Source of the DNA: Tabrizicola sp.
GTDB lineage: Bacteria; Pseudomonadota; Alphaproteobacteria; Rhodobacterales; Rhodobacteraceae
Reading direction: 5' to 3'
Assembly: GCF_016793705.1 (NCBI RefSeq)
Contig: NZ_JAEULO010000023.1
Span: 22,589 to 86,588, forward strand
DNA length: 64,000 nucleotides
Below, one piece after another: positions 16,607-37,500 of the stretch (the stretch's first letter is position 1; each line of letters opens with the position of its first letter). Made by a program: the position numbers and the translations under genes. Under the pieces are notes generated by a model. That model ran no database searches. It saw nothing but the letters and a program-made list of their open reading frames with translations, and was not told where the DNA came from.

Positions 16607-17392
16607 ATGAAACTGACTGCTGCCGCCCTTCTGGGCCTTGCCACGCTTGCCGCGCCCGCCCTGGCGCAGGACCTGCCCGACCTCGCGGGCAAGGAAGTCG
16701 TGGTCGTGACCGAAAACGCCTATCCGCCGCTGCAATTCCTGGACAAGTCCGGCGCGGCGGTGGGCTGGGAATACGACGCGATGGCGGAAATCGCCAAGCG
16801 GCTGAACATCACCGTGAAATACGAGAACACCAGCTGGGATGCGATGATCCCCGCCGTGTCGGAAGGCCAGTACGACATCGGCATGACCGGGATCACCATC
16901 AAGGACGAGCGCAAGGAGAAGGTCGATTTCTCCGACCCCTACATGCGGTCCGAGATGCTGATGATCGTGCGCGGGGATGAGGCGCGGTTCACCGATGCGG
17001 CGTCCTTCGCGGCGATCCCGGAGCTGCTGGTCTCGGCCCAGCCGGGGACTTCGCCCTTCTATGCGGCCGTGTATGAGATCCTCGACGGGAACGAGGAGAA
17101 CCCGCGGATCATCAAGTTCGAGACCTTCGGGGCGGGGCTTGAGGCGCTGAAGGCGGGGGACGTGGACCTGACGTTGTCGGATTCCACGGCTGCGAACGGC
17201 TATGTCGCGGCCTCGAACGGCGGGTTGAAGATCATCGGCACGCCGCTGGCGTCCGAGGATTTCGGCTTCATCTTCCCGAAAGGGTCCGAGCTGGTGGCGC
17301 CGGTCAATGCGGCGATCGCCAGCATGAAGGCGGACGGCACGCTGGATGCGCTGAACCAGAAATGGTTCGTCGACTACAAGATGGGCGAGTGA
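16607..17392 (+). CDS. Amino-acid ABC transporter substrate-binding protein
   Basis: A 261-residue periplasmic binding protein (type II, SBP_bac_3). The signal peptide [20 protein letters not shown] is followed by [16 protein letters not shown] and [19 protein letters not shown], the usual amino-acid-binding motifs, and the closing [11 protein letters not shown] permease gene follows 35 bases later on the same strand, with a strong hairpin in between. Ligand not determinable. Confidence 0.93.
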
Positions 17393-17398
17393 AAGGCC

Positions 17399-17421
17399 GC
17401 CCCCGGGTCTGACCCGGGGGC
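17399..17421 (+). terminator. Strong hairpin between binding-protein and permease genes
   Basis: Perfect 11-base inverted arms GCCCCCGGGTC / GACCCGGGGGC separated by one T, seven bases after the binding-protein stop. There is no T-run, so it may protect the upstream mRNA or partly terminate. That would give more binding protein than permease, as in other ABC operons. Confidence 0.7.
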
Positions 17422-17427
17422 ACGCTG

Positions 17428-18222
17428 ATGGCTCCGAACGCCGAACCCGAGAAGGACTTTCCCTGGTGGCTGGTGATCCTGGCGGTCACCGGCCTTTGGC
17501 TTTTGTACGAGATGCTGTCGGACGAGGTCTATGCCGGGGCCTTGCGGGTGCTGTCGAAGGGGCTGGCGGTCACGCTTCTGGTGGCGGTGGTGGCCTATCT
17601 GGGCGCCTGCGCCATCGGGCTGGGGCTGGCGGTGATGGGGATGTCGAAGCACATCCTCCTGCGGCAGGCGGCGCGGCTTTACATCGAGGTGATGCGGGGC
17701 GTGCCGATCATCGTGCTTCTCTTGTACGTCGCCTTCGTGCTGGTGCCCGGCGTGGTGGCCGGGGTGAATGCATTGGCGGGGGAGGATCTGTTGCGCACCC
17801 GCGACGTTCCCTTGCTCTGGCGGGCGGTGCTGGCGCTGATGCTGGCCTATTCCGCCTTCCTGGCCGAGATCTTCCGGGCCGGGCTGCAAGCGGTGGACAA
17901 GGGCCAGATCGAGGCGGCGATGGCCTTGGGGCTGAACGGATGGCAGAGATTTCGCCATGTTCGATTTCCGCAAGCATTTCGGCTGATCCTGCCGCCCTTG
18001 GGCAATGACTTTGTAGCAATGGTGAAAGACAGCTCGCTGGTGGCGGTGCTGGGCGTGACCGATGTGGCGCAACTGGCGAAGGTCACGGCGGCGGGGAACT
18101 TCCGTTACTTCGAGACCTATAACGTGGCGGCCTTCCTGTATCTGGTGATGACCATCGGCCTGTCGCTGCTGTTGCGCCGGTTCGAGGCGCGGATGCGGTC
18201 GCGCGGGCGGGACGCTTCTTGA
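17428..18222 (+). CDS. Amino-acid ABC transporter permease
   Basis: A 264-residue HisMQ-type inner-membrane permease. After a first helix (WWLVILAVTGLWLLYEML), the core has YIEVMRGVPIIVLLLYVAF and the cytoplasmic loop EAAMALGLNGWQRFRHVRFP that contacts the ATPase. Several further helices follow. Only one permease and no ATP-binding gene are present. The importer would therefore need a homodimeric permease and an ATPase encoded elsewhere. Confidence 0.92.
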   Translation: MAPNAEPEKDFPWWLVILAVTGLWLLYEMLSDEVYAGALRVLSKGLAVTLLVAVVAYLGACAIGLGLAVMGMSKHILLRQAARLYIEVMRGVPIIVLLLYVAFVLVPGVVAGVNALAGEDLLRTRDVPLLWRAVLALMLAYSAFLAEIFRAGLQAVDKGQIEAAMALGLNGWQRFRHVRFPQAFRLILPPLGNDFVAMVKDSSLVAVLGVTDVAQLAKVTAAGNFRYFETYNVAAFLYLVMTIGLSLLLRRFEARMRSRGRDAS

Positions 18223-20893: not shown

Positions 20894-21853
20894 TTAGCGG
20901 CGCAGGCTGCCCGGCGGCTGGCCGAACCGGGCGCGGAAGGCGCGGGAGAGGGTCGAGGGGCTGGAAAACCCGGTGCGCAGAGCCACTTCGGCGAGCGGGT
21001 GGCGGGTGTCGGTGAGCATCCGCCGCGCGGCTTGCAGGCGCAGGTCAAGGGCATGGGCGGCGGGGGTGGTGCCAAGCGCCGCGCGGAACAGCGATTCCAG
21101 GCGGCGGGGGGAAAGGCCGACGGCCTCGGCGGTATGAGCCGCGGTTTCCGGTGCGTCGATCCGCGCCTCCATCCGGGCGAGCGCCTGGGCGACGCGGGGG
21201 TCGAGGGCAGGGTCGCGGACCTCGGCGATCTGCGGCTCGTGGCCGTTGCGGACGGTGGCGAGGAAACTGGAGGCGACCTGCCGGGCCAAAGCGGCCCCGT
21301 GGCGGGTGCGGATCAGGTGCAGCATGAAATCGGCGGCGGGGGCGGCACCGGAGATCGTCACGCGGTTGCGGTCGATCACGAAGCGGTCGGGGACGACGTC
21401 GATATGGGGATGGGCGGCGGCTAGGTCCTCCAGGTCCTCCCAATGCACCGTTGCCCGGTAGCCGTCCAGCAGCCCGGCCCGCGCCAGCACCCAGGGTGCC
21501 GCGTCGATGCCGCCCACAAGGTTGAATCGCGGCGCGATGCGGCGCAGGTCGTGGATCAGCGGGCGGGTGGCAACATCGGCCAGTCGGTACCCCGCCGCGA
21601 CGATCAGCGCTTCGGCGCCGACGGCATGGGAGAGCGGGCCGGAGGAGGGCAGCTCGATCCCGCAGGTCAGCGGCACCGGGGCGCCGTCCGGCGAGACGAC
21701 GCGCCAGCGGTAGGCCTCGTGCCCCAGGTGCCGATTGGCGTTGCGCAGCGGGTCGAGGGCGGAGGCGACTTCCAGGATCGAGGCTTGCGGCAGGACCAGC
21801 AGGGCGATGGTCAGCGGCTGGGCAGAGGGCTGGAAGATGGCGTTTTCCGTCAT
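20894..21853 (-). CDS. GlxA/CdhR-type AraC-family regulator of the carnitine cluster
   Basis: A 319-residue regulator. The N-terminal DJ-1/PfpI-like domain is at about 10-195 (ALLVLPQASILEVASALDPL, ALIVAAGYRL). The C-terminal AraC DNA-binding domain shows SPRRLESLFRAALG and LAEVALRTGFSSPSTLSRAF. CdhR in Pseudomonas has the same architecture and activates carnitine dehydrogenase. Here the gene is divergent from the BKACE gene, 73 bases apart, and so probably controls the carnitine operon. Confidence 0.9.
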   Translation of the reverse strand: MTENAIFQPSAQPLTIALLVLPQASILEVASALDPLRNANRHLGHEAYRWRVVSPDGAPVPLTCGIELPSSGPLSHAVGAEALIVAAGYRLADVATRPLIHDLRRIAPRFNLVGGIDAAPWVLARAGLLDGYRATVHWEDLEDLAAAHPHIDVVPDRFVIDRNRVTISGAAPAADFMLHLIRTRHGAALARQVASSFLATVRNGHEPQIAEVRDPALDPRVAQALARMEARIDAPETAAHTAEAVGLSPRRLESLFRAALGTTPAAHALDLRLQAARRMLTDTRHPLAEVALRTGFSSPSTLSRAFRARFGQPPGSLRR

Positions 21854-21926
21854 GCGAATTGCGTAATCTGCAAAGCGTGCGCTGGCAAGCGGGCTATGGT
21901 GGGGCAGCACACCGGGGGAGGCCAAC

Positions 21927-22841
21927 ATGCCGCTGAACATGAACAAGGAAGTCTTCATCACCTGCGCCGTCACCGGCTCGGGCGGGACGCAGGACCGCTC
22001 GCCGCACGTGCCGCGCTCCCCGAAGCAGATCGCCGAAAGCGCCATCGCGGCGGCCAAGGCGGGGGCAGCGGTGGTGCATTGCCATGTGCGGGACCCCGAG
22101 ACGGGCAAGCCCAGCCGCAAGCTGGAATACTACCGCGAAGTGACCGACCGCATCCGCGACAGCGATACCGACGTGGTGCTGAACCTGACCGCCGGGATGG
22201 GCGGCGACATGATGTTCGACGGCACCGAACAGATGGACCGGATGGCCGCCCATTCCGATATGTGCGGGGCGGAGGAGCGGGTGGCGCATATTGTCGAGTG
22301 CCGCCCGGAGATCTGCACGCTCGACTGCGGCACGATGAACTTCAACGAGGCCGATTATGTGATGGTCAACACCCCCGGCATGCTGCGCGACATGGGCCGC
22401 CGGATGGCGGCGGCGGGGGTGCGGATCGAGATCGAGGCCTTCGACACCGGCCACCTGTGGCTGGCGAAGGAGCTGGTGAAGGAAGGCGTGATCCCGGAGC
22501 CGGTGCTGGTGCAGCTGTGCATGGGCGTGCCGTGGGGGGCGCCGGACGACCTGAACACTTTCATGGCGATGGTGAACAACGTGCCGCAGGGCTGGCATTT
22601 CAGTGCCTTCGGCCTTGGCCGGAACGAGATGGCCTATGTCGCGGCGGCAACGCTCGCGGGTGGCAACGTGCGGGTGGGGCTGGAGGACAACCTCTGGCTC
22701 GACAAGGGCGTGCTGGCCACCAACGCGCAGCTGGTGGAGCGCGCCACGACCATCATCGAGAACATGGGCGCCCGGGTGATCACCCCGGCGGAGGTGCGTG
22801 CGCGGCTGAAGCTGGAGAAGCGGGCGCCGGTGGCGAAGTGA
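21927..22841 (+). CDS. BKACE-family 3-keto acid cleavage enzyme (putative dehydrocarnitine cleavage)
   Basis: A 304-residue zinc TIM-barrel enzyme of the former DUF849 family. Metal ligands are His51 and His53 (VVHCHVRDPETG), with a conserved acidic tail RVGLEDNLWLDKGVLATN. Family chemistry: beta-keto acid plus acetyl-CoA gives acetoacetate plus a new CoA ester. Beside carnitine dehydrogenase, the expected substrate is 3-dehydrocarnitine, yielding betainyl-CoA. First gene of the operon, divergent from the CdhR-like regulator. Confidence 0.92.
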   Translation: MPLNMNKEVFITCAVTGSGGTQDRSPHVPRSPKQIAESAIAAAKAGAAVVHCHVRDPETGKPSRKLEYYREVTDRIRDSDTDVVLNLTAGMGGDMMFDGTEQMDRMAAHSDMCGAEERVAHIVECRPEICTLDCGTMNFNEADYVMVNTPGMLRDMGRRMAAAGVRIEIEAFDTGHLWLAKELVKEGVIPEPVLVQLCMGVPWGAPDDLNTFMAMVNNVPQGWHFSAFGLGRNEMAYVAAATLAGGNVRVGLEDNLWLDKGVLATNAQLVERATTIIENMGARVITPAEVRARLKLEKRAPVAK

Positions 22842-23278
22842 AGGCAGTTCTGTCGCCTCGGCGCCTTGGGTTCTTTGCAAGCGGTGCCTTCTGGGGTCTT
22901 TGGCTTATCGCAGCATGTGTGCCCACCGCGAATTGGGTAACTCCTGATGGAGTGCCGCTTGGTCCAGTCGAATGCCGTGACGTGGTCCCCTCTGACGTTT
23001 CTGGCAGTGGAACGGCGTGTCGCGCTCGCAAACTTCGGAACACGCCCGCCGATCTTGCGAAGTGCGAACGGGAGGGCGGGGGCGCTGGCCCTTTTGACAT
23101 GCTGGATGACGGCTTGACTTGCCAGTACGACTACACTGCCCGCGACGCTGGCAAGATGTGTTCGAAAGCATCTGATTGTGACGTCGCTTGTGATGGAAAC
23201 ACAAAGACATGCAGAGCGTCTTCACCTTGGGGCGAAGTTCTCGATGAGAACGGCAAGCTCATCGAAATGATTCAATAG
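22838..23278 (+). CDS. Cysteine-rich probable lipoprotein inside the carnitine operon
   Basis: A 146-residue protein. The GTG start overlaps the BKACE stop (GTGA). An N-terminal signal (LGFFASGAFWGLWLIAAC) ends in a lipobox-like IAAC with Cys27. The mature part has eight more cysteines, including MCSKASDCDVACDGNTKTC, suggesting four disulfides in the periplasm. Base use is visibly less GC-rich than its neighbours, and such a gene is not part of known carnitine operons, so it looks like a recent insertion. Family unrecognised. Confidence 0.65.
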   Translation: MKAVLSPRRLGFFASGAFWGLWLIAACVPTANWVTPDGVPLGPVECRDVVPSDVSGSGTACRARKLRNTPADLAKCEREGGGAGPFDMLDDGLTCQYDYTARDAGKMCSKASDCDVACDGNTKTCRASSPWGEVLDENGKLIEMIQ

Positions 23279-23301
23279 AGCACGGTTTGGGATTGGCAGA
23301 A

Positions 23302-24780
23302 ATGACCAGAAAAGCAGCAATCATCGGCGGCGGGGTTATCGGCGGCGGCTGGGCCGCGCGGTTCCTGCTGAACGGCTGGGACGTGGGCGTCTTCGATCCC
23401 GACCCGCAGGCGGAGCGCAAGATCGCCGAGGTGATGGCCAATGCCCGCGCCGCCCTGCCCGCGCTTTCCGACGTGCCGATGCCGAAGGAAGGCAAGCTCA
23501 CCTTCCACGGCACCATCGGCGAGGCGGTCGAGGGTGCGGAATATGTGCAGGAAAGCGTGTCCGAGAGGATCGAGCTGAAGCACAAGGTCTATGCCCAGCT
23601 GCAACAGGCCAATCCGGGCGTGCTGATCGGCTCCTCGACCTCCGGCTTCAAGGCCAGCGACCTGCAGAAGGGCAGCCCCGCGCCGGAGAACATCATCGTC
23701 GCGCATCCGTTCAACCCGGTTTACCTGCTGCCCCTCTCCGAGGTCTCGGGGTCCGAGAAGAACACGCCCGAGACGGTGGAAAAGACCGTGCAGATCATGA
23801 AGGACATCGGGATGTTCCCGCTGGTGATCCGGCATGAGATCGACGCCTTCATCGGCAACCGCTTCCTCGAAGCCGTCTGGCGCGAGGCGCTCTGGATGCT
23901 CAAGGACGGCATCGCCACCACCGAAGAAATCGACGAGGCGATCCGCATGGGCTTTGGCCTGCGCTGGGGGCAGATGGGCCTCTTCGAGACCTACCGCATT
24001 GCGGGCGGCGAGGCCGGGATGCGGCATTTCATGGCCCAGTTCGGCCCGGCGCTGAAATGGCCCTGGACCAAGCTGATGGACGTGCCGGAATTCAACGACG
24101 AACTGGTCGATCTGGTGGCCAACCAGTCCGACGCGCAGTCCGGCGTGTATGGCATCCGCGAGCTGGAACGTATCCGCGACCGTAACCTGGTGGGTTTCCT
24201 GCGCAGCCTGAAGGAGCGTGACTGGGGCGCGGGCAAGGTGCTGAAGGAACATGACGAACGCCGCGCGGCGGCCTTCCATGCCGAGGTGGCCAAGGGCCTC
24301 GACACCGGGGCGAAGGCTTCGCCGCTGGTGATGTGGCAGGGCCAGGTGCTGCCGGGCTGGATCGACTACAACGGTCACATGACGGAAAGCCGCTACTACT
24401 TCTGCAACTCGGAAACCGTGGACAACTTCCTGCGCATGATCGGCGCGGGGATGGACTACGTGGCGGCGGGGCATTCCTACTACTCCGCCGAGACGCATAT
24501 CCGCCATCTGGGCGAGGCCAAGCTGGGCGACCAGATCCGGGGCGAACTCCAGATTCTGTCAGCGGACGAGAAGCGCTTCCGCAGCTTCGTGCGGATCATG
24601 AAGGGCGACGATTGCGTGGCGACGGTCGAACAGCTGTGCCTGCACGTCGACATGAAGGCAGGCAAGACCGTCGCCGCCGCGCCCGAGGTCTGGGGCAAGC
24701 TGCAGGCCATTGCCAAGGCCCATGCCGGGCTGCCCGTGCCGGAAGGTGCGGGCCGCGCCGTCGGCCAGAAGAAGGAATAG
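23302..24780 (+). CDS. lcdH: L-carnitine dehydrogenase fused to betainyl-CoA thioesterase domain
   Basis: A 492-residue two-domain enzyme. Residues 1-320 are a 3-hydroxyacyl-CoA-dehydrogenase-like NAD enzyme (GGGVIGGGWAARF, AHPFNPVYLLPL, HEIDAFIGNRFLEA) that oxidises L-carnitine to 3-dehydrocarnitine. Residues about 345-480 form a hotdog thioesterase (GQVLPGWIDYNGHMTESRYY) that would split betainyl-CoA into glycine betaine and CoA. It therefore encodes the step before and the step after BKACE. The family exists with and without the fusion. A TTG five codons upstream is an alternative start. Confidence 0.94.
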   Translation: MTRKAAIIGGGVIGGGWAARFLLNGWDVGVFDPDPQAERKIAEVMANARAALPALSDVPMPKEGKLTFHGTIGEAVEGAEYVQESVSERIELKHKVYAQLQQANPGVLIGSSTSGFKASDLQKGSPAPENIIVAHPFNPVYLLPLSEVSGSEKNTPETVEKTVQIMKDIGMFPLVIRHEIDAFIGNRFLEAVWREALWMLKDGIATTEEIDEAIRMGFGLRWGQMGLFETYRIAGGEAGMRHFMAQFGPALKWPWTKLMDVPEFNDELVDLVANQSDAQSGVYGIRELERIRDRNLVGFLRSLKERDWGAGKVLKEHDERRAAAFHAEVAKGLDTGAKASPLVMWQGQVLPGWIDYNGHMTESRYYFCNSETVDNFLRMIGAGMDYVAAGHSYYSAETHIRHLGEAKLGDQIRGELQILSADEKRFRSFVRIMKGDDCVATVEQLCLHVDMKAGKTVAAAPEVWGKLQAIAKAHAGLPVPEGAGRAVGQKKE

Positions 24781-24784
24781 GGCG

Positions 24785-25948
24785 ATGGATTTCGGGCTGA
24801 CCGAAGAACAGGCGATGATCGTCGAGACGACCCGCGCCTTCGTCGAGACCGAGCTTTACCCGCATGAACAGATGGTGGAACGCACCGGCCACCTGCCGCT
24901 GGAATTGATCCGGGACATCCAGAAGAAGGCCATGGCCGCGGGGCTCTATGCCGCGAACATGCCCGTCGAACTGGGTGGCGCGGGCCTCGATACGCTCTCC
25001 TGGCTCCTCTACGAAAAGGAGCTGGGCCGGGCCAACTATGCCTTGCACTGGACGACCGTGGCGCGGCCCTCGAACATCCTGCTGGCGGGGAACGCAGACC
25101 AGCGCGAACGCTATCTGATGCCCTGCATCCGGGGCGAGACCTGGGATTGCCTGGCCATGACCGAACCCGGAGCCGGGTCGGATCTGCGCGGGATGAAGGC
25201 CTCGGCCCGGCAGGATGGCGGCGACTGGGTGCTGAACGGCACCAAGCATTTCATCTCCCACGCCGACCTTGCCGGTTTCGCGATCTGCTTCATGGCGAGC
25301 GGTGAGGAACAGACCCCGCGCGGACCGAAGAAGCTGATCACCGCCTTTTTCGTCGACAAGGGCACGCCGGGGTTCACCGTGCGGGAGGGGTATCGCAACG
25401 TCAGCCATCGCGGCTATACCAACGCGGTCCTGGAATTCGATGACTGCCGGGTGCCGGCGGCCAATGTGCTGGGTGAGCCGCACAAGGGCTTCGAGGTGGC
25501 GAACTCCTGGCTTGGCGCGACCCGGCTGCAGGTGGCTTCGACCTGCCTTGGCCGGGCGGAGCGGGCCCTGGGCCATGCGATCCAGTATGCCGCCGAACGC
25601 AAGCAGTTCGGCCAGCAGATCGGCAAGTTCCAGGGTATCAGCTTCAAGCTGGCCGACATGGCGATGGAGCTGAAGGCGGCGGAATTGCTGACGCGGGAAG
25701 CCGCCTGGAAATACGACCAGGGCACGGTGACGGAAGCCGATATGTCGATGGCCAAGCTGAAGGCGACCGAAGTGCTGGCGCATGTCGCCGACGAGGCGAT
25801 CCAGATCCATGGCGGGATGGGGCTGATGGACGAACTCCCCTTGGAACGCATCTGGCGGGACTCCCGGGTGGAGCGGATCTGGGAGGGGACCTCGGAGATC
25901 CAGCGGCACATCATCAGCCGCGAATTGCTGAGGGCGGTCGGGGGTTGA
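24785..25948 (+). CDS. Acyl-CoA dehydrogenase (putative gamma-butyrobetainyl-CoA dehydrogenase)
   Basis: A 387-residue FAD enzyme of the acyl-CoA dehydrogenase family. AMTEPGAGSDLRGM and GTKHFISHADLAGF bind flavin and substrate, RKQFGQQIGKFQGISFKLAD is the family signature, and the tail EGTSEIQRHIISRELL is conserved. Four bases separate it from lcdH, so it belongs to the operon. In that setting the likely reaction is gamma-butyrobetainyl-CoA to crotonobetainyl-CoA. This is inferred from context; a general short-chain substrate is possible. Confidence 0.92.
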   Translation: MDFGLTEEQAMIVETTRAFVETELYPHEQMVERTGHLPLELIRDIQKKAMAAGLYAANMPVELGGAGLDTLSWLLYEKELGRANYALHWTTVARPSNILLAGNADQRERYLMPCIRGETWDCLAMTEPGAGSDLRGMKASARQDGGDWVLNGTKHFISHADLAGFAICFMASGEEQTPRGPKKLITAFFVDKGTPGFTVREGYRNVSHRGYTNAVLEFDDCRVPAANVLGEPHKGFEVANSWLGATRLQVASTCLGRAERALGHAIQYAAERKQFGQQIGKFQGISFKLADMAMELKAAELLTREAAWKYDQGTVTEADMSMAKLKATEVLAHVADEAIQIHGGMGLMDELPLERIWRDSRVERIWEGTSEIQRHIISRELLRAVGG

Positions 25949-25977
25949 ACCGTCGGACCGGGGGCCAGCCCCCCAGC

Positions 25978-26200
25978 CCATCGGTTTCTCGAACCGATGG
26001 CGAAACCGATGGACTACCCCGGGATATTTAGGGACAGAAAATGCAGGCTTCCTTTGTCTTTGGTAACCGCTCGCTAAGGTTAATCGGCGAATCTGCCAGA
26101 GCGGTACAGGCGGGGACGCCGATGACCGTGACGGGAAATGGCACCTCGCTTCGGCTTCCGGGGCGGGGTGTTCCGATTTTCTGTCTGCAAATATCCTCGG
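25978..26200. repeat. Hairpin and head-to-head repeat motifs splitting the operon
   Basis: The 307-base gap (25949-26255) has no gene. It holds a hairpin CCATCGGTT-TCTCG-AACCGATGG (25978-26000). Two copies of the GATATTT motif follow in opposite orientation: GGGATATTTAGGGACAGAAAATG ends at about 26042, and its reverse TTTTCTGTCTGCAAATATCC spans 26178-26197. This may end one transcript and start another. Confidence 0.7.
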
Positions 26201-26255
26201 GGGGGCCGGGGGGCGAAGCGCCCCCGGCGGTCGATGCAGCAGAAGAGGGCCGGGC

Positions 26256-28247
26256 ATGAGCCGCCTCGATCGTCTGCTGCGTCCGCGCCACATCGCCGTC
26301 CTCGGCGCCGGTTGGGCGCTGAATGTCATCGAGCAATGCCGGAAGATGGGCTTCAAGGGCCCGGTCTGGCCGGTGCATCCGACCAAGACTGAAATCGGCG
26401 GGCTGAAGACCTATGCAAGCCTTGCCGAGCTGCCAGAGCCGCCGGATGCCACCTTCATCGGCGTCAACCGGCATGCGACGCTGGATGTCGTTGCCGAGCT
26501 TGCCGCCATGGGTGCGGGCGGCGCGATCTGCTTCGCCTCGGGCTGGACCGAGGCGGGGGAGCCGGGGTTGCAGGACAGGCTGGTCGCGTCGGCGGGCGAC
26601 ATGCCGATTCTGGGGCCGAACTGCTATGGGGTGATCAACTACCTTGACGGGGCGCTCCTCTGGCCCGACCAGCATGGCGGGGCACGGGTGGAGAAGGGCG
26701 TGGCGCTGGTCAGCCAGTCCTCGAACATCGTGATCAACCTCGGGATGCAGCAGCGCGGGCTGCCGGTGGCCTATGTTGCCTGTCTCGGCAACGCGGCCGT
26801 CGTGGGCCTCGCGGAACTGACCGGGGCGCTTCTGGACGATCCGCGGGTGACGGCGGTGGGCCTGTACATCGAGGGGATCGACGATGCCCCGGCCTTCGCG
26901 GCGCTTGCCGAGAAGGCGCGTGCGCTGGGCAAGGGCGTGGTCGCCATCAAGTCGGGGAAGACGGAGCTTTCCCGCACAGCGGCGGCCTCGCACACGGCTT
27001 CGCTGGCCGGTGGGGGCGCTGCCTCCAGTGCCTTCCTGCGGCAGATCGGGGTGGCGGAGGTCGACACGCCAAGCGAACTGATCGAGACGCTGAAGATATT
27101 CCATGTCCATGGGCCGCGGATCGGCACGCGGATCTGTTCGCTGTCCTGTTCGGGGGGCGAGGCGGGGCTGGTCGCCGACCTTGCCGCGCCCTACGGCATC
27201 GACTTCCCGCCGGTGCCGAAGCCGACGCACGACCGGCTCTTTGCCGTGCTGGGCGAGATCCCCACCATCTCCAATCCATTGGACTACCACACCTTCATCT
27301 GGGGCGACGGGCCGAAGACGACCGAGGTCTTCACCGCCATGCTGGAGGCCTATGACGCGGGCCTCTACATCGTCGACACGCCCCGCACCGACCGCTGCTC
27401 GGATGACTGGTATCAGCCCGCGCTTGACGCGATGGTTGCGGCGCAGAAGACCGCCGGGAAACCCGCCTTCCCGGTCGCGTCGATGCCGGAGAATTTCGGC
27501 GAAGGCCGGGTGCAGGCGATGATGGATCAGGGCGTCTCGGCGCTTCTCGGGATCGAGACAGCGCTGGCGGCGGTGAAGGCGGCGCAGACCCCGGCGGGGC
27601 TGGCGGGCTGGCGGCCGGTGGCGGCTCTGCCCCCGCGCGAGGCGCGGATACTGTCCGAGGCCGAGGGCAAGGCGCTGCTGGCGTCGGCGGGCGTGCCGGT
27701 GCCAAAGGCGGTGTCGGGCACGACGCTGGCCGAAGTTCAGGCCAGGGCGAAAGGCCTGCGCGCGCCGCTGGCGCTGAAGGGTCTGGGATTTGCCCACAAG
27801 ACCGAGGCCGGGGCGGTGCGCCTGGGCCTGGCGAGCCTGGAGGGGCAGGCCGAGATGGCGGGTGCGACCGGCTATCTGGCGGAAGAGATGGTGACGGGGA
27901 TCGCCGGAGAAATCCTGCTCGGGCTGCGGCGCGATCCGGTCTACGGGGTGACGCTGACACTGGGCATGGGGGGCGTCACCGCCGAGGTGCTGGCCGACAC
28001 GGTGACGCTGGTCCTGCCCGCGACCGAGGCCGAAGTCCTGGCGGCGCTGCGTCGGCTGCGACTCTGGCCGCTGCTCGACGCCTACCGCGGGCGACCGAAG
28101 GCCGACATGGGGGCGATCGCGGCGATGGCGGTGTGTTTGGGCGCGCTGATGCTGGCCGACGAGCGCCTTGAGGAAATTGAAATCAACCCCGTCCTCGTGC
28201 GTGAACAGGGCGCCGTGGCGGTGGACGCCCTGATCAGGAGGACATGA
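26256..28247 (+). CDS. ADP-forming acyl-CoA ligase (acetate-CoA ligase family), putative butyrobetaine/carnitine activator
   Basis: A 663-residue NDP-forming acyl-CoA synthetase. The CoA-binding Rossmann domain is at about 5-125 (HIAVLGAGWALNVIEQC). Two succinyl-CoA-ligase-like domains follow, with the phosphohistidine segment SHTASLAGGGAASSAF and LSCSGGEAGLVADLA. A C-terminal ATP-grasp (about 460-663) ends EEIEINPVLVREQ. Its stop overlaps the CaiD-like gene. Carnitine systems usually use AMP-forming CaiC or CoA-transferase CaiB; this enzyme type would be a different way to activate the betaine substrate. Substrate inferred. Confidence 0.9.
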   Translation: MSRLDRLLRPRHIAVLGAGWALNVIEQCRKMGFKGPVWPVHPTKTEIGGLKTYASLAELPEPPDATFIGVNRHATLDVVAELAAMGAGGAICFASGWTEAGEPGLQDRLVASAGDMPILGPNCYGVINYLDGALLWPDQHGGARVEKGVALVSQSSNIVINLGMQQRGLPVAYVACLGNAAVVGLAELTGALLDDPRVTAVGLYIEGIDDAPAFAALAEKARALGKGVVAIKSGKTELSRTAAASHTASLAGGGAASSAFLRQIGVAEVDTPSELIETLKIFHVHGPRIGTRICSLSCSGGEAGLVADLAAPYGIDFPPVPKPTHDRLFAVLGEIPTISNPLDYHTFIWGDGPKTTEVFTAMLEAYDAGLYIVDTPRTDRCSDDWYQPALDAMVAAQKTAGKPAFPVASMPENFGEGRVQAMMDQGVSALLGIETALAAVKAAQTPAGLAGWRPVAALPPREARILSEAEGKALLASAGVPVPKAVSGTTLAEVQARAKGLRAPLALKGLGFAHKTEAGAVRLGLASLEGQAEMAGATGYLAEEMVTGIAGEILLGLRRDPVYGVTLTLGMGGVTAEVLADTVTLVLPATEAEVLAALRRLRLWPLLDAYRGRPKADMGAIAAMAVCLGALMLADERLEEIEINPVLVREQGAVAVDALIRRT

Positions 28248-29047
28248 TGGCAATGGAAATGCGGACCGAAGGCCCGGTGAAGACCCGCCGCGAGGGGGCG
28301 ATCCTCGAAGTCACGCTCGACGCGCCCAAGGCCAATGCGATCAGCCTGAAGACCAGCCGGGTGATGGGCCTCGTCTTCCGCGACTTCCGCGACGACGACA
28401 GCCTGCGGGTCTGCATCCTGCGCGCGGCGGGCGAGAAGTTCTTCTGCCCCGGCTGGGACCTGAAGGCCGCTGCCGAGGGTGATGCGGTCGACGGCGACTA
28501 CGGCGTTGGGGGCTTTGGCGGCTTGCAGGAGTTGCCGAACCTGAACAAGCCGGTGATTGCCGCCGTGCAGGGCATCTGCTGCGGCGGCGGGCTGGAGCTG
28601 GCGCTGTCGGCGGACCTGATCCTCTGTTCCGCGAATGCCACCTTCGCGCTGCCGGAAATCCGAAGTGGCACGGTGGCGGATGCCGCCTCGATCAAGCTGC
28701 CGAAGCGCATCCCCTATCACGTCGCGATGGACCTCCTCCTGACCGGCCGCTGGTTCGATGCCGAGGAGGCCTTCCGCTGGGGGCTGGTCAAGGAGGTCTG
28801 CGCGCCGGAGGACCTGCTGGAGAAGACCTGGGCGCTGGCGCGGCTTCTGGAAAGCGGGCCACCGCTGGTCTATGCGGCGATCAAGGAAGTGGTGCGCGAG
28901 GCGGAAAACATGCGCTTCCAGGACGCGCTGAACCGGGTCAGCAAGCGCCTGCTGCCGACGGTGGACCGGCTTTACTCCAGCGAGGACCAGCTGGAGGGGG
29001 CGCGGGCCTTTGCGGAGAAGCGCGATCCGGTGTGGAAGGGGAAGTGA
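28247..29047 (+). CDS. Enoyl-CoA hydratase (CaiD-like, putative crotonobetainyl-CoA hydratase)
   Basis: A 266-residue crotonase-fold enzyme. LRAAGEKFFCPGWDLK forms the first oxyanion-hole strand, GICCGGGLELALSADLILC the second, and LPEIRSGTVADAA the region of the catalytic Glu. The start has AGGAGG directly upstream; two other nearby ATGs are possible. It overlaps the ADP-forming ligase gene. By context it hydrates crotonobetainyl-CoA to carnitinyl-CoA. Confidence 0.9.
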   Translation: MAMEMRTEGPVKTRREGAILEVTLDAPKANAISLKTSRVMGLVFRDFRDDDSLRVCILRAAGEKFFCPGWDLKAAAEGDAVDGDYGVGGFGGLQELPNLNKPVIAAVQGICCGGGLELALSADLILCSANATFALPEIRSGTVADAASIKLPKRIPYHVAMDLLLTGRWFDAEEAFRWGLVKEVCAPEDLLEKTWALARLLESGPPLVYAAIKEVVREAENMRFQDALNRVSKRLLPTVDRLYSSEDQLEGARAFAEKRDPVWKGK

Positions 29048-29773: not shown

Positions 29774-31387
29774 ATGGACGAGAGCGATTACATCATCGTG
29801 GGGGCGGGTTCGGCGGGCTGCGTGCTGGCGGAACGGCTGACGGCGAACGGTCGGCACAAGGTCACTCTGCTGGAGGCGGGGGGCACCGACCGGCGGTTCT
29901 ATGTGCAGCTGCCCCTGGGCTACGGCAAGCTCTTCTACGATCCGGCGGTGAACTGGCTCTACAGGACCGAGCCTGATCCGGGGCTGGCGGGGGCGCGGGA
30001 CCATTGGCCAAGGGGCAAGCTTCTGGGCGGGTCGTCCAGCATCAATGCGATGGTCTGGATCCGGGGGCATCGGGCGGATTACGAGGACTGGGGGCGCGTG
30101 GGCTCCGGCTGGGGCTGGGAGGAGTGTCTGAGCGCCTACAAGGCGATGGAGGACAACGAGGCGGGTGGGGATGAGTGGCGAGGGTCGGGGGGGCCGCTTT
30201 TCATCTCGGCCAATCGGTCGGGGCTGCATCCGTTGGTGAAAAGCTACGTCGCGGCTTGCGGCGAGGCGGGGCTGGCGGAGAACGCGGATTTCAACGGCGA
30301 ACGGCAGGAGGGCGCCGGGATCTACCAGATGACGATCAAGGGGGCGCGGCGGAACTCGGCGGCGCGGGCCTTCCTGCGACCGGCGATGCGGCGCGCGAAC
30401 CTTCGGGTGGTAACGGGCGCGCTGGTCAGCCGGGTGGTCATCGAGGGCGGTCGGGCGGTGGGTGTGGAATATCGCCGGGGCGGCGAGACGCATCTGCTGC
30501 GGGCAAAGGCCGAGGTGATCCTGGCGGGGGGCGCGATCAACTCGCCGCAGCTCTTGCAGCTGTCGGGGATCGGACCGGCGGCCTTGTTGCAATCATTGGG
30601 TATTCCCCTGGCGCTGGACAATCCGAATGTGGGCGACCATCTGAGCGACCATCAGGGGATCAACTACAGCTGGTCGATGAAGGTCCCCACATACAATGAC
30701 GAGTTGCGGCCCTGGTGGGGGAAGGTCAGGGCAGGGTTGCAGTATTTCCTGGGCGGCGGTGGACCGCTTGCGAAATCTATCAACCACGGCGGCGGGTTCT
30801 TCCGGACGAAGGCAGACCTGGACCGGCCGAACATGCAGCTCTATTTCCAGGCGTTTTCCACCCTGATCCCGCGCGAGGGCGAACGCCCCCTGCTGACGCC
30901 GGATCCCTGGTCGGGGATGTCGATCGGCCTCTCCAACTGCCGCCCGACCAGTCGGGGACATATTCGGCTGCGGAGTGCGCGGGCGGAGGATCACCCGGTG
31001 ATCACGGCGAATGCGTTTTCCACCGAGAACGACGTCGAGGAGATGCTGGCGGCGGTGAAATACCTGCGCCACATCGCGGCGCAACCCGCAATGGCCCGGC
31101 TGATCAAGGAGGAGTTGCGACCGGGGCCGGAGGTGGTGACGGACGAGGGCCTGATCGACGATTTCCGCGCCCGGTCGGGGACGGTCTACCACCCGAGCTG
31201 CACTTGCCGGATGGGGCGGGAGGCGGCGACCTCGGTGGTGGATGCGGGGCTCAGGGTGCATGGGGTGGGCGGTTTGCGGGTGATCGACGCCAGCGCCTTC
31301 CCGAACATCATCGCCGGGAACACCAATGCGCCCGCCATGCTGATGGGCTGGAAGGGGGCGGAGGCGGTGTTGCGCGACGCGCGGTGA
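29774..31387 (+). CDS. GMC-family oxidoreductase (choline-dehydrogenase-like)
   Basis: A 537-residue FAD-dependent alcohol dehydrogenase. The N-terminal FAD motif is YIIVGAGSAGCVLAERL. HWPRGKLLGGSSSINAMVW and GGAINSPQLLQLSGIGP are the two GMC signatures; the C-terminal catalytic region has VYHPSCTCRMG and NAPAMLMGWKGAE. It resembles BetA, which oxidises choline to betaine aldehyde. Choline-sulfatase is the next gene, convergent, which supports choline or another alcohol as substrate without proving it. No betB gene is nearby. Confidence 0.9.
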   Translation: MDESDYIIVGAGSAGCVLAERLTANGRHKVTLLEAGGTDRRFYVQLPLGYGKLFYDPAVNWLYRTEPDPGLAGARDHWPRGKLLGGSSSINAMVWIRGHRADYEDWGRVGSGWGWEECLSAYKAMEDNEAGGDEWRGSGGPLFISANRSGLHPLVKSYVAACGEAGLAENADFNGERQEGAGIYQMTIKGARRNSAARAFLRPAMRRANLRVVTGALVSRVVIEGGRAVGVEYRRGGETHLLRAKAEVILAGGAINSPQLLQLSGIGPAALLQSLGIPLALDNPNVGDHLSDHQGINYSWSMKVPTYNDELRPWWGKVRAGLQYFLGGGGPLAKSINHGGGFFRTKADLDRPNMQLYFQAFSTLIPREGERPLLTPDPWSGMSIGLSNCRPTSRGHIRLRSARAEDHPVITANAFSTENDVEEMLAAVKYLRHIAAQPAMARLIKEELRPGPEVVTDEGLIDDFRARSGTVYHPSCTCRMGREAATSVVDAGLRVHGVGGLRVIDASAFPNIIAGNTNAPAMLMGWKGAEAVLRDAR

Positions 31388-31475
31388 ACGGGAAGCCGTC
31401 CTCGGGGCATCGAGCCCCTCGGAGGCGCTGCCGCGGAAAGGTGCGGGGCCGGTCGCGTTCGGGATGCGGCGGATG

Positions 31476-31508
31476 CCTCCGGCGGGGATATTTGCGCCAG
31501 TATGAAAG
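31476..31508 (+). repeat. GGGGATATTTG intergenic motif between convergent genes
   Basis: A full copy (CCTCCGGCGGGGATATTTG then CGCCAGTATGAAAG) 16 bases downstream of the betC stop, read in reverse relative to betC. It lies between the converging GMC and betC genes. Confidence 0.85.
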
Positions 31509-31523
31509 CCGGAATCTGGGCAG

Positions 31524-33026
31524 CTATTCGCCGCGGGGGAAGCGCTTGTTCTCCTCCAGCACGTTCAGGTCCATGTGGTTGCGCATGTAGCGTTCCGAGG
31601 CTGCGCGGAGGGGCTGGTGGTCCCAGGGGAAATAGGCGCCGTTCCTGAGCGCCTCATAGACCACCCAGCGGCGGGCCTGGCTTTCGCGCACCTGCGCGTC
31701 ATAGGCAGCAAGATCCCAGCGGGCGTCGGCGAGCTTGCGGAAATGGGCGAGAATCTCGGCGGCGCGGGGGTCGGCGGCGAGGTTCGCGCGTTCGCGCGGG
31801 TCGTTTTCCACATCGAACAGCAATTCCGGGTCCGCCGGGCAGCGGATGTATTTCCAGGCGCCGTCGCGCAGCGCGACCATCGGGGTGATCGTGCCCTCGG
31901 CGGCGTATTCCATCGCGACCGGCGGCCGGGGCGCGCCGTTTGCCACCGGGATCAGGTTGACGCCTTCGGTCCAGGGGGCGACCTCGTCCATCGAGATGCC
32001 CGCCAGCGCGGCAAGGGTGGGGGTGAGGTCGACGGAGGAGACCGGGGTTTCCACCAGACCGGCGGGCATTTCGGGCGCGGCGATCATCAGGGGGACGCGG
32101 GCCGAGCCCTCGAAGAAGGTCATCTTGAACCAGAGCCCGTGTTCGCCCAGCATCTCGCCGTGGTCGGAAAGGAAGACGACCTGCGCTTCCTGCCTGGTCG
32201 CTTCCAGCACCGCGAGGATCTCGCCGATCTTGTCGTCGATGTAGGAGATGTTGGCGAAATAGGCCTGTTTGGCGCGGCGGATGTGGTCGGGAGTGATTTC
32301 CATCCCCTTCCAGTCGCAGGCGTCCATCAGGCGCTTGGAATGGGGGTCCATGTCCTCATAGGCCAGGCCTTCGGGCGGTTCGCATTCCGGGGCGCCTTCG
32401 TAGAGGTCCCAGTACTTGCGGCGGGCCACGAAGGGGTCGTGCGGATGGGTGAAGCTGACCGTCAGGCACCAGGGGCGGGGGTCCTGGCCGCGAGACAGGT
32501 CGTAGAGTTTCTGGACGGCCTGGAAGGCCACGTCGTCGTCGTATTCGTACTGGTTGGTGATCTCGGCCACGCCCGCGCCCGTCACCGAGCCGAGGTTGTG
32601 ATACCACCAGTCGATCCGCTCGCCGGGCTTGCGGTAGTCGGGGGTCCAGCCGAAATCGGCGGGGTAGATGTCGGTGGTCAGGCGCTCCTCGAAGCCGTGG
32701 AGCTGGTCGGGGCCGACGAAATGCATCTTGCCGGAAAGTGCGGTCTGGTAGCCCGCGCGGCGCAGGTGGTGGGCGTAGGTCGGGATGTCCGAGCAGAATT
32801 CGGCGGCGTTGTCGTAGACCCTTGTCCGGCTGGGAAGCTGGCCGGACATGAAGCTGGCCCGCGCCGGGGCGCAGAGGGGGGATGCCGTATAGCAGTTCTG
32901 GAAGCGGGCTGACCGGGCGGCGAGGCGCTTCAGGTTCGGGGTATGCAGAAAATCGGCCGGGCCATCGGGGAAGAGCGTGCCGTTCAGCTGGTCGACCATC
33001 AGGATCAGGAGGTTGGGCTTCGGCAT
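31524..33026 (-). CDS. betC: Choline-sulfatase
   Basis: A 500-residue type I sulfatase that releases choline from the osmolyte choline-O-sulfate. Cys52 in CAPARAS (C-x-P-x-R) is the residue converted to formylglycine. N-terminal LLILMVDQLNG and HPHDPF hold metal ligands, and FLSDHGEMLGEHGLWFKMTF the second metal set. The C-terminal dimer tail RNHMDLNVLEENKRFPRG is typical of BetC. It lies 87 bases downstream of bhcR on the same strand, so the two could share a transcript. Confidence 0.94.
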   Translation of the reverse strand: MPKPNLLILMVDQLNGTLFPDGPADFLHTPNLKRLAARSARFQNCYTASPLCAPARASFMSGQLPSRTRVYDNAAEFCSDIPTYAHHLRRAGYQTALSGKMHFVGPDQLHGFEERLTTDIYPADFGWTPDYRKPGERIDWWYHNLGSVTGAGVAEITNQYEYDDDVAFQAVQKLYDLSRGQDPRPWCLTVSFTHPHDPFVARRKYWDLYEGAPECEPPEGLAYEDMDPHSKRLMDACDWKGMEITPDHIRRAKQAYFANISYIDDKIGEILAVLEATRQEAQVVFLSDHGEMLGEHGLWFKMTFFEGSARVPLMIAAPEMPAGLVETPVSSVDLTPTLAALAGISMDEVAPWTEGVNLIPVANGAPRPPVAMEYAAEGTITPMVALRDGAWKYIRCPADPELLFDVENDPRERANLAADPRAAEILAHFRKLADARWDLAAYDAQVRESQARRWVVYEALRNGAYFPWDHQPLRAASERYMRNHMDLNVLEENKRFPRGE

Positions 33027-33113: not shown

Positions 33114-33926
33114 TCATTCGGGTTGGCTGCCGCCTGTCGCTTCCGTCACCTGATCCGCCGCTGCCCGCACCAGCGCGCCGATCCGGGTGGCGTCCGAGAG
33201 CCCCATGCGGAAGGCGGGGCCGGAGACGGAGAGGCCCGCGACCGGCTCGCCATGGGCATTGAAGATCGGGGCGGCGACGCAGCGCATCCCCTCGGCGCGT
33301 TCCTGGTCGTCGATGGAGAATCCGCGGTCACGGGTGCGGGAGAGGTCCCGCAGCAGGGCGCTGTCGCTGGTGAGGGTCAGCGAGGTGAACTTCTCCAACC
33401 CCTTGCGGGCGATGATGCCGCGGGTCTTCTCCTCGGGATACCAGGCGAGGAGCGCCTTGCCGATGCCGGAGGAATGCATCGGCGCGCGGGTGCCGGGCGG
33501 GAAGAAGGCGCGGATCGCCTCGTAGGTCTCGACCTGGGCGACGAAGAAGACCTCGTCCTTGACCTCGATCCCGAGGTTCGCGGTCTCGCCGGTTTCGCGC
33601 ATCAGCGCGTCCATCGGCTGCCGGGCGCGTTCCACCACCTTGGTGCGGCGCAGGAAGGCCGAGCCGACGCGGAAGGCGCCGGGGCCGATGTGCCAGAACT
33701 GGCCGGGTTCGTCGGCCTCGACCATGCCATGCCCTTGCAGGGTGACGAGGGCGCGGAAGACGGTGGCGATGGCCTCGCCGGTGTCTTCGGCGATCTCGGA
33801 AAGCGTGCGACCGGGGTTCAGCGCGACATGGGTCAGGATGTCGAGGCCCCGGTCCAGCGCCTGCACCGTGTTCTGGTCGGTCTTGTCGTGGAACGCCTTC
33901 GGGCGGCCGCGGGGTTTCTGTGCCAT
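33114..33926 (-). CDS. bhcR: IclR-family regulator BhcR
   Basis: A 270-residue IclR-type regulator. The winged helix is at about 20-85 (NTVQALDRGLDILTHVALNP, EIAEDTGEAIATVFRALVTL). The effector domain is at about 95-265 (SSGIGKALLAWYPEEK, CVAAPIFNAHGEPVAGLSVSGP). It is divergent from bhcABCD, the arrangement known in Paracoccus, where BhcR controls the cycle and senses glyoxylate. Start MAQKPRGRPKAF chosen because the upstream 20 residues do not look coding. Confidence 0.93.
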   Translation of the reverse strand: MAQKPRGRPKAFHDKTDQNTVQALDRGLDILTHVALNPGRTLSEIAEDTGEAIATVFRALVTLQGHGMVEADEPGQFWHIGPGAFRVGSAFLRRTKVVERARQPMDALMRETGETANLGIEVKDEVFFVAQVETYEAIRAFFPPGTRAPMHSSGIGKALLAWYPEEKTRGIIARKGLEKFTSLTLTSDSALLRDLSRTRDRGFSIDDQERAEGMRCVAAPIFNAHGEPVAGLSVSGPAFRMGLSDATRIGALVRAAADQVTEATGGSQPE

Positions 33927-34004
33927 GTCGTTTGCCTCCAAAGGCGTGAAAAAGCGCAAGCTGTTGACTGGGCTGGGGATTAGCATGGGTTTGCGACAGT
34001 GAAA

Positions 34005-34022
34005 AATCTTTTCGAAAAAATT
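34005..34022. promoter_or_regulatory. Candidate BhcR operator in the bhcR-bhcA intergenic region
   Basis: The 18-base near-perfect palindrome AATCTTTTCGAAAAAATT (core TTTTCGAAAA) lies in an AT-rich patch between the divergent start codons, 56 bases before bhcA. IclR regulators bind such dyads. Palindrome is seen; identity of the binder is inferred. Confidence 0.45.
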
Positions 34023-34078
34023 GCGCGGATTGGTCGCGGGGCGTAGCTTTTCCGGGCGATCTTTCAGGGAGTTGCCCG

Positions 34079-35281
34079 ATGTCCATGCAGAACCCCGTTT
34101 TCATCCCGGGCCCGACCAACATCCCGGATTCGGTCCGCAAGGCCTGCGACATGCCGACGCTGGACCACCGGAGCCCCGCTTTCGCGCGGCTGTTCAAGCC
34201 TGCGGTGGAAGGGGTGCGGCGGGTGCTGAAGATGGAAGCCGGTAGTTCCGGGGGCGAGGTCATCGTCATCCCCTCGACCGGCACCGGCGGCTGGGAGGCG
34301 GCGATCAGCAACACGCTTTCGCCCGGCGACACGGTGCTGGCGGCGCGGTTCGGCATGTTCAGCCACCGCTGGATCGACCTGTGCCAGCGTCACAAGCTGG
34401 ATGTCGAGATCATCGAGACCCCATGGGGGCAGGGTGCGCCCCTTGCGGCCATCGAAAAGGCGCTGAAGGCGGACAGGAGCCATCAGATCAAGGCGGTGCT
34501 GGCGACGCATAACGAGACGGCGACCGGGGTGAAATCCGACATCGCCGGCATCCGCCGGGCGCTGGACGCGGCGGGCCATCCGGCGATGCTGTTCGTCGAC
34601 GGGGTGTCCTCGATTGCGTCCATGCCCTTCGACTTTGCGGGCTGGGGCGTGGATATCGCCGTGGCGGGTAGCCAGAAAGGCTTCATGCTGCCTGCGGGCC
34701 TGGCGATCCTTGGCGTCTCGCCGAAAGCGCTGGCAGCGATGGAAACGGCGCGGCTGCCCCGGACTTTCTTCGATTTCAAGGACATGCTCGCCGCCTATGC
34801 GCGCGGTGGCTACCCCTATACCCCCGCCGTGGGCCTGATCGCGGGCCTTGCCCATTCCATCGACCTCCTGGAAACCGAAGGGCTGGACAATGTCTACGCC
34901 CGCCACCACCGCCTCGCCGAAGGCGTCCGCCGCGCGGTCTTTGCCTGGGGCATGGCGCCCTACGCGGCCTCGCCGGACCTCTATTCGGACACGGTGACGG
35001 CGGTGCGGGTGCCCGAGGGCTGTGACGGCACCGCGCTGGTGCAGCTGGCGGCATCGAAATACGGCATGGCCTTCGGCGTGGGGCTGGGCGAAGTGGCGGG
35101 CAAGGTCTTCCGCATCGGCCATCTGGGGATGCTGACCGAGGCGATGGTGCTGTCCGGCCTTGCCGTCGCCGAGATGTGCATGGCCGACCTCGGTTGGCCG
35201 GTGAAACTGGGCTCGGGCGTGGCGGCGGCGCAGGAGTATTATCGCGGGACCGTTCCGGCGATGGCGCTGGCGGCGGAATGA
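34079..35281 (+). CDS. bhcA: Aspartate-glyoxylate aminotransferase BhcA
   Basis: A 400-residue class V PLP aminotransferase. It transfers the amino group of aspartate to glyoxylate, giving glycine and oxaloacetate. PLP Lys200 is in VAGSQKGFMLPAG, with STGTGGWEAA and FVDGVSSIASMPFDF as phosphate and ring contacts. It is first of four ordered genes that together make the beta-hydroxyaspartate cycle. Its stop overlaps the bhcB start. Confidence 0.95.
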   Translation: MSMQNPVFIPGPTNIPDSVRKACDMPTLDHRSPAFARLFKPAVEGVRRVLKMEAGSSGGEVIVIPSTGTGGWEAAISNTLSPGDTVLAARFGMFSHRWIDLCQRHKLDVEIIETPWGQGAPLAAIEKALKADRSHQIKAVLATHNETATGVKSDIAGIRRALDAAGHPAMLFVDGVSSIASMPFDFAGWGVDIAVAGSQKGFMLPAGLAILGVSPKALAAMETARLPRTFFDFKDMLAAYARGGYPYTPAVGLIAGLAHSIDLLETEGLDNVYARHHRLAEGVRRAVFAWGMAPYAASPDLYSDTVTAVRVPEGCDGTALVQLAASKYGMAFGVGLGEVAGKVFRIGHLGMLTEAMVLSGLAVAEMCMADLGWPVKLGSGVAAAQEYYRGTVPAMALAAE

Positions 35282-36246: not shown

Positions 36247-36250
36247 CATC

Positions 36251-37414: not shown

Positions 37415-37416
37415 GC

Positions 37417-37470
37417 CTTTCATACTGGTTCAAATATCCCACGGGGGGTGCGGGGGGTGTGAAACCCCCC
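37417..37470 (-). repeat. Reverse GATATTT motif plus hairpin between bhcC and bhcD
   Basis: CTTTCATACTGGTTCAAATATCCC starts three bases after the bhcC stop (the motif in reverse orientation). GGGGGGT-GTGAA-ACCCCCC follows (37452-37470), a 7-base-arm hairpin. It could reduce bhcD expression relative to bhcABC. Confidence 0.8.
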
Positions 37471-37500
37471 GCTCCAACAGCAGCCGCAAGGAACCACCCG

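Follow-up and report, generated by a model that had tools for sequence, protein, structure and literature searches.

A conserved Tabrizicola gene cluster with the predicted enzymes of a coenzyme A route from gamma-butyrobetaine to glycine betaine

We analysed a 64,000-nucleotide stretch of the genome of Tabrizicola sp. (hereafter the window), in which a gene cluster at positions 20894–29047 most probably forms an operon for the catabolism of trimethylammonium C4 acids, a reading to which we assign a probability of about 85%. Gamma-butyrobetaine or crotonobetaine would be converted via coenzyme A (CoA) esters into carnitine, and carnitine in turn into glycine betaine. A first-pass annotation had proposed this route from six genes, all of which are indeed open reading frames at this place, and the proposal is supported by gene content, gene order, conservation, co-occurrence, kinship and key residues. 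Its butyrobetaine half, which had been deduced from neighbouring genes, gains independent support from the joining of the three genes concerned to carnitine genes elsewhere and from their co-occurrence with carnitine dehydrogenase; it is further backed by the closeness of the hydratase to CaiD, by a ligase that resembles DddX without its lyase base, by BcoAB of Sinorhizobium meliloti and by the route of the industrial strain HK4. The cluster is a well-conserved example of a pathway already described, not new biochemistry or a new pathway; we count it as a known kind because HK4 uses the route and S. meliloti BcoAB makes gamma-butyrobetainyl-CoA. The substrates and step directions given here for Tabrizicola sp. 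are predictions from sequence. The cluster comprises the following features:

20894–21868, minus strand: CdhR/GbdR-like regulator with DJ-1/PfpI and AraC-type helix-turn-helix domains (PF12833, PF01965); start codon unsettled
21927–22841, plus strand: BKACE, proposed 3-dehydrocarnitine cleavage enzyme (PF05853)
about 22838–23278, plus strand: small open reading frame of about 146 codons between BKACE and CDH; start unsettled
23302–24780, plus strand: CDH, carnitine 3-dehydrogenase fused to a 4HBT_2 thioesterase domain (NF005716, PF02737, PF00725, PF13279)
24785–25948, plus strand: ACAD, acyl-CoA dehydrogenase, proposed gamma-butyrobetainyl-CoA dehydrogenase
26256–28247, plus strand: LIG, fused ADP-forming acyl-CoA ligase (CoA-binding, Succ_CoA_lig and ATP-grasp_5 domains), proposed BcoAB-like gamma-butyrobetaine/crotonobetaine:CoA ligase
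28244–29047, plus strand: ECH, CaiD-like crotonobetainyl-CoA hydratase of the crotonase family, its best NCBIfam model being crotonobetainyl-CoA hydratase

The regulator gene diverges from the five enzyme genes (BKACE, CDH, ACAD, LIG and ECH), which share one direction. BKACE scores 337 bits against a PF05853 cut-off of 24.8, and CDH matches NF005716 along the full fusion (residues 2–490; 750.5 bits, cut-off 592). LIG carries the CoA-binding, ligase and ATP-grasp domains together with the phospho-histidine of the ADP-forming acyl-CoA ligase superfamily. Several NCBIfam models match ACAD, LIG and the regulator, none above its cut-off.

Conservation of gene order and co-occurrence

Loci related to the cluster were collected with LIG as the query, the best 80 of 317 relatives being kept. 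The first-pass annotation had suggested looking for the same gene order across Rhodobacteraceae, and the BKACE-CDH-ACAD-LIG-ECH set is kept in 60 of the 63 such loci with enough flank. Where the flank is long enough, ECH adjoins LIG on its 3' side in every case (75/75), ACAD precedes LIG in 71 of 72, and a divergent regulator with at least 60% identity lies upstream of BKACE in 52 of the 59 loci with room for it. Among the exceptions, two Defluviimonas loci (L050, L063) have ACAD-LIG-ECH, but neither CDH nor BKACE lies in the stretch examined; the three genes there adjoin a regulator that reads from its sequence as GATase1-AraC type (33% identical to that of the window), and both genomes encode a CDH fusion elsewhere, 73–74% identical. 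The third exception (L075) lies on a contig that ends before ECH. The arrangement of the cluster is beyond chance.

The ligase also travels with carnitine dehydrogenase at the scale of the class, in a sample of 387 evenly drawn genomes that includes the Tabrizicola genome. A close LIG, defined as at least 479 bits, a line set after the list was seen, is present in 28 of the 387 genomes and in 13 families, in 10 of which a fused CDH is found too. Any CDH match (E 1e-60 or better) occurs in all 28 of these genomes, against 41 of the 359 others; requiring the CDH to be fused or to have at least 54% identity gives 22/28 against 25/359, and counting fused CDH alone gives 20/28 against 12/359 (Fisher p 4e-19, uncorrected for kinship). 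One might suppose that ACAD, LIG and ECH, each from a broad, many-membered family, are ordinary short-chain acyl-CoA enzymes lying beside a carnitine operon by accident; the conservation of their order across families and two orders, the co-occurrence with CDH and the kinship of ECH with CaiD make the likelihood of this close to negligible.

The ACAD-LIG-ECH triad as a detachable module

Further afield, the triad recurs in Rhizobiaceae, Roseobacteraceae and Paracoccaceae, either with carnitine genes or separately behind a GlxA-type regulator. Twelve plasmid loci, hand-picked from the match lists of LIG and CDH (198 and 213 records) and read for gene content by tblastn, illustrate this. The triad and CDH stand together in eight (Paracoccus methylovorus, two Neorhizobium, two Rhizobium, Sulfitobacter, Thioclava and Pseudorhodobacter), Agrobacterium fabrum C58, Leisingera and Paracoccus aminovorans have CDH and BKACE without the triad, and in the 20 kb viewed of Ruegeria pomeroyi DSS-3 the triad is accompanied by neither CDH nor BKACE but has a GlxA-type regulator in front and an inserted DJ-1/PfpI gene. 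In other families the three genes are also linked with carnitine genes in a different order; the triad acts as a unit that can be detached from, or coupled to, the degradation of carnitine. Genes whose annotation in plasmid records says no more than acetate-CoA ligase family protein or acyl-CoA dehydrogenase family protein gain candidate functions from this.

The class sample contains 27 LIG loci outside the Tabrizicola genome. ACAD (at least 59% identity) adjoins LIG in 25 of them and ECH (at least 48%) in 26, and 13 have a CDH within the cluster; one more CDH copy is degenerate. In two loci (L135 and L143, in genomes G326 and G262), a second crotonase comes after LIG and ECH and no ACAD match is present; these are possibly a crotonobetaine-only version. 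We also observed a diverged cluster type in four genomes (L151, L152, L154, L161) with relatives of LIG (38–40% identity), ACAD (51–55%), ECH (43–46%) and a CDH-like dehydrogenase (35–39%), three of the four also having BKACE (51–53%). The main cluster is also present in three of these four genomes (G257, G384 and G064), and the diverged type perhaps serves a related substrate.

The hydratase and the ligase

ECH is 53% identical to Escherichia coli CaiD. Residues E118 and E138, which we take to be the catalytic glutamate pair of crotonases, are both glutamate in CaiD and in all 114 relatives compared, 77 of which come from the near loci. In a phylogenetic tree with long outer branches, CaiD is nested among the ECH proteins of such clusters (supports 86/81 and 93/86). 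Eleven further crotonase matches exist in the Tabrizicola genome besides ECH and a near-copy of it on contig C59; the seven entered in the tree (L106, L109, L110 and L111 being left out) fall outside the clade of ECH and CaiD, with a support of 93/86 at the nearest split, and of the eight own-genome crotonases compared none is closer to E. coli CaiD than ECH.

The nearest solved relative of LIG, by sequence as well as by fold, is DddX, an ATP-dependent dimethylsulfoniopropionate (DMSP) lyase, at about 26% identity. LIG and DddX have in common the ADP-forming ligase fold, the phospho-histidine (H246 in LIG) and an onium-binding, cation-pi tryptophan (W349), which corresponds to DddX W391 in both alignments that we made. 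H246 and W349 are present in all 115 close relatives of LIG (79 from the near loci), and a divergent ligase elsewhere in the Tabrizicola genome (L121) lacks W349. Matches of W136/Y181 and Y386/F435 to the DddX aromatic cage shifted between the two alignments, so we do not claim them. DddX activity requires the general base Glu432, as excerpts of PMC8163506 report (all papers cited here were drawn on in excerpt). This residue is not conserved: in a gapped alignment the position is D in LIG of the window, and among the 115 relatives it is P in 81, A in 12, D in 7 and T in 5, with others in the remainder.

Given this resemblance, we considered whether LIG itself could be a DddX-type DMSP lyase with neighbours that handle acryloyl-CoA. 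With the lyase base unconserved, identity at about 26% and carnitine genes as the neighbours in 60 of 63 loci, we rejected this function for LIG as highly improbable.

The dehydrogenase and the choice of substrate

ACAD groups in a phylogenetic tree with the ACAD proteins of other clusters, apart from CaiA (31% identical) and three own-genome paralogues, these being the only ones of seven own-genome matches, besides ACAD and the C59 copy, that aligned over 85% of the length; the tree has long branches, of which CaiA is one. We take E367 to be the candidate catalytic base of ACAD. At this column, 82 of 108 relatives with at least 59% identity (71 from the near loci L003–L082) have E and the other 26 have D, whereas the residue is G in CaiA, which is annotated as a reductase. 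An acidic residue here would favour oxidation over reduction by ACAD.

An alternative is that the substrate of the triad is crotonobetaine alone or another trimethylammonium acid, such as delta-valerobetaine, and that its overlap with the carnitine pathway is only partial, ACAD possibly acting as a reductase. The best NCBIfam model of ACAD is indeed a reductase, two of the 27 loci lack an ACAD homologue beside LIG and ECH, and the diverged clusters beside the main one suggest that several substrates may exist in this pathway family. The acidic residue at the ACAD base position in every close relative, the grouping of ECH with CaiD, the C4 chain length that fits CDH and BKACE, and the use of gamma-butyrobetaine by BcoAB, as excerpted, speak against this alternative, and we judge it very unlikely compared with a gamma-butyrobetaine or crotonobetaine route through carnitine.

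Proposed pathway and the release of carnitine

In the proposed scheme, LIG would join gamma-butyrobetaine (or crotonobetaine) to CoA at the expense of ATP, ACAD would oxidise gamma-butyrobetainyl-CoA to crotonobetainyl-CoA, and ECH would hydrate the latter to L-carnitinyl-CoA. L-carnitine would be released by the fused thioesterase domain, by a free thioesterase encoded elsewhere or by LIG in reverse, and the dehydrogenase domain of CDH would turn it into 3-dehydrocarnitine. From 3-dehydrocarnitine and acetyl-CoA, BKACE would form acetoacetate and betainyl-CoA, which the thioesterase domain of CDH would open to glycine betaine. These last steps, including the action of the thioesterase on betainyl-CoA, are those known for the families, and the neighbours of BKACE point to 3-dehydrocarnitine as its substrate.

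The scheme has two thioesters to open, L-carnitinyl-CoA and betainyl-CoA, against one thioesterase domain, and the point framed by the cluster is how carnitine leaves its CoA ester. Neither a CoA-transferase nor an AMP-binding domain was found in any of the six cluster genes. ADP-forming CoA ligases are generally reversible. It is conceivable, if rather unlikely, that LIG would both activate gamma-butyrobetaine and, running backwards, split L-carnitinyl-CoA to free L-carnitine and regain ATP, with no need for a CoA-transferase or a dedicated thioesterase. Within about 18 kb, no thioesterase-domain match was obtained in seven clusters (L145, L146, L205–L208, L210) that belong to one family and have an unfused CDH; L145 and L146 were searched at E 1e-4 with the window domain and the other five among matches above 45 bits with two query domains. 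In these clusters, either a free thioesterase serves or LIG runs backwards.

A degenerate gene in genome G255 points the other way. Beside ACAD-LIG-ECH in locus L142 (5422–6768) lies a CDH fusion that has lost its glycine-rich motif, along with further positions of the dehydrogenase part that were presumably catalytic, and has kept its thioesterase. G255 has an intact CDH fusion elsewhere, and such a degenerate copy occurs in one of the 14 genomes of its family. A retained thioesterase beside the triad connects the two and suggests that hydrolysis releases carnitine there, against a reversal of LIG. G388, G390 and G391 also encode free proteins with a thioesterase domain; these are not located near the carnitine clusters and are uninformative on this point.

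Comparison with known systems

Strain HK4 (Lonza; placed between Agrobacterium and Rhizobium) converts 4-(trimethylamino)butyrate to L-carnitine by thioesterification, dehydrogenation and hydration and then degrades it, and its mutant HK13, a producer, is without L-carnitine dehydrogenase (excerpts of PMC3546705 and, for HK13, also PMC2131755). The likeness to our scheme extends to each of these described stages: a CoA thioester, dehydrogenation, hydration, carnitine and its subsequent degradation. The comparison concerns described steps, not HK4 gene sequences; the bco gene names used for HK4 come from patents. The cluster ties a module conserved in several alphaproteobacterial families to the known route of an industrial carnitine strain.

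Closest in gene content is S. meliloti, whose pSymB record from strain Ak57 (L181) reads regulator-BKACE-CDH-ACAD-LIG-caiD, the same set and order as in the window, with identities of 72% for BKACE, 54% for CDH, 65% for ACAD, 46–51% for LIG and 76% for ECH; it differs in having ABC (ATP-binding cassette) transporter genes downstream. S. meliloti BcoAB is a gamma-butyrobetaine:CoA ligase that has been used with ATP and CoA to make gamma-butyrobetainyl-CoA (PMC8364193). Since S. meliloti shares the cluster of the window, BcoAB is most likely its LIG.

Three other systems resemble the cluster in part. The E. coli cai operon (CaiA, CaiB, CaiC and CaiD) shares the CoA-ester chemistry and a CaiD relative, but runs anaerobically from carnitine to butyrobetaine and has a CoA-transferase, CaiB. 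A SAR11 island likewise places CDH and BKACE alongside a butyrobetaine enzyme, which according to the excerpted PMC12421898 is a gamma-butyrobetaine dioxygenase, a hydroxylation rather than a CoA route. In the bbu cluster of Emergencia timonensis, an ACAD-family enzyme handles butyrobetaine as its CoA ester, but trimethylamine is eliminated and class III CoA-transferases are used (PMC8364193, in the part cited).

Unlike in the SAR11 island, no TauD-family gene was found in the Tabrizicola genome: searching the assembly (94.5% complete) for the TauD-family dioxygenase domain PF02668 gave no match, with a positive E. coli control. A search with PF06155 was equally empty, but its control was silent too, and PF02668 was used instead. 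As there is no TauD-family match, no dioxygenase route to carnitine is seen, and gamma-butyrobetaine and crotonobetaine can plausibly reach the glycine betaine pool by the CoA route in this genome.

Evidence against the proposed route

Several observations weigh against a butyrobetaine-to-betaine operon. At the level of family models, ECH stays below the cut-off of the CaiD model NF002936 (301.7 of 500 bits), though this model is the best of the 73 families compared; ACAD stays below that of the CaiA model NF002885 (178.4 of 540 bits), and its best model, also below cut-off, is an acryloyl-CoA reductase (289.8 of 640 bits). The tryptophan W349 of LIG is shared by all 21 of the more distant ligases compared, so it is not diagnostic. 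Regarding gene content, the cluster has no dedicated carnitinyl-CoA thioesterase or CoA-transferase gene, and no butyrobetaine transporter is evident beside it in the window. Six of the 28 genomes with a close LIG have as their CDH match only a dehydrogenase of less than 50% identity, and an intact CDH is not nearby in 14 of the 27 class-sample loci, some of which are cut by contig ends. As for the known systems, the assignment of BcoAB to the S. meliloti cluster follows from organism, substrate and cluster, and the LIG frame is broken or split in L181. The excerpted review PMC2131755 lists HK4 in a table under butyrobetaine hydroxylase, while likening the route in its text to the degradation of fatty acids.

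Regulation and genomic surroundings

The regulator has the architecture of CdhR (GATase1-AraC, PF01965 with PF12833, divergent from the operon), and its best NCBIfam model is GbdR at 191.5 bits, below the cut-off of 480. A carnitine response and a binding site are reported for Pseudomonas aeruginosa CdhR (PMC5806209, excerpt), and the divergent regulator of the window probably senses a compound of the pathway. An ABC binding protein and permease encoded upstream (16607–18222) are of amino-acid type; ABC transporter genes adjoin the cluster in several relatives.

The small open reading frame at 22838–23278 has no Pfam match at E 0.001 and appears secreted- or lipoprotein-like by eye. This frame and the roughly 0.3 kb between ACAD and LIG, to which no gene is assigned, were absent from the first-pass account.

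Downstream of the cluster, the window has further quaternary-amine genes at 29774–33026, for a choline sulfatase (above cut-off) and for a GMC oxidoreductase similar to choline dehydrogenase (below cut-off), followed at 33114–38460 by BhcR, BhcA, BhcB, BhcC and BhcD, each above its NCBIfam cut-off, which make up a complete beta-hydroxyaspartate cycle set. Such a set would suit the breakdown of glycine betaine via glycine and glyoxylate. Separately, in four genomes of one family (L149, L153, L155, L156), a LIG relative (36–38% identity) adjoins a BhcA-like aminotransferase (44–46%).

Elsewhere in the Tabrizicola assembly, another contig holds a near-copy of the cluster (L002, L084; G000:C59) with identities of 96–97% for CDH, 95% for BKACE and 89% for LIG, which may reflect either a duplication or the presence of a second strain in the assembly (contamination 4.48%). 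A second, divergent set (L121, G000:C4, 7473–13996), with no BKACE or ACAD match within the 19.5 kb examined, comprises a CDH-thioesterase fusion (47–49% identity), an ADP-forming ligase (28–30%), a crotonase (41%) and an Oxidored_FMN-family protein, with an OpuAC-type binding protein nearby.

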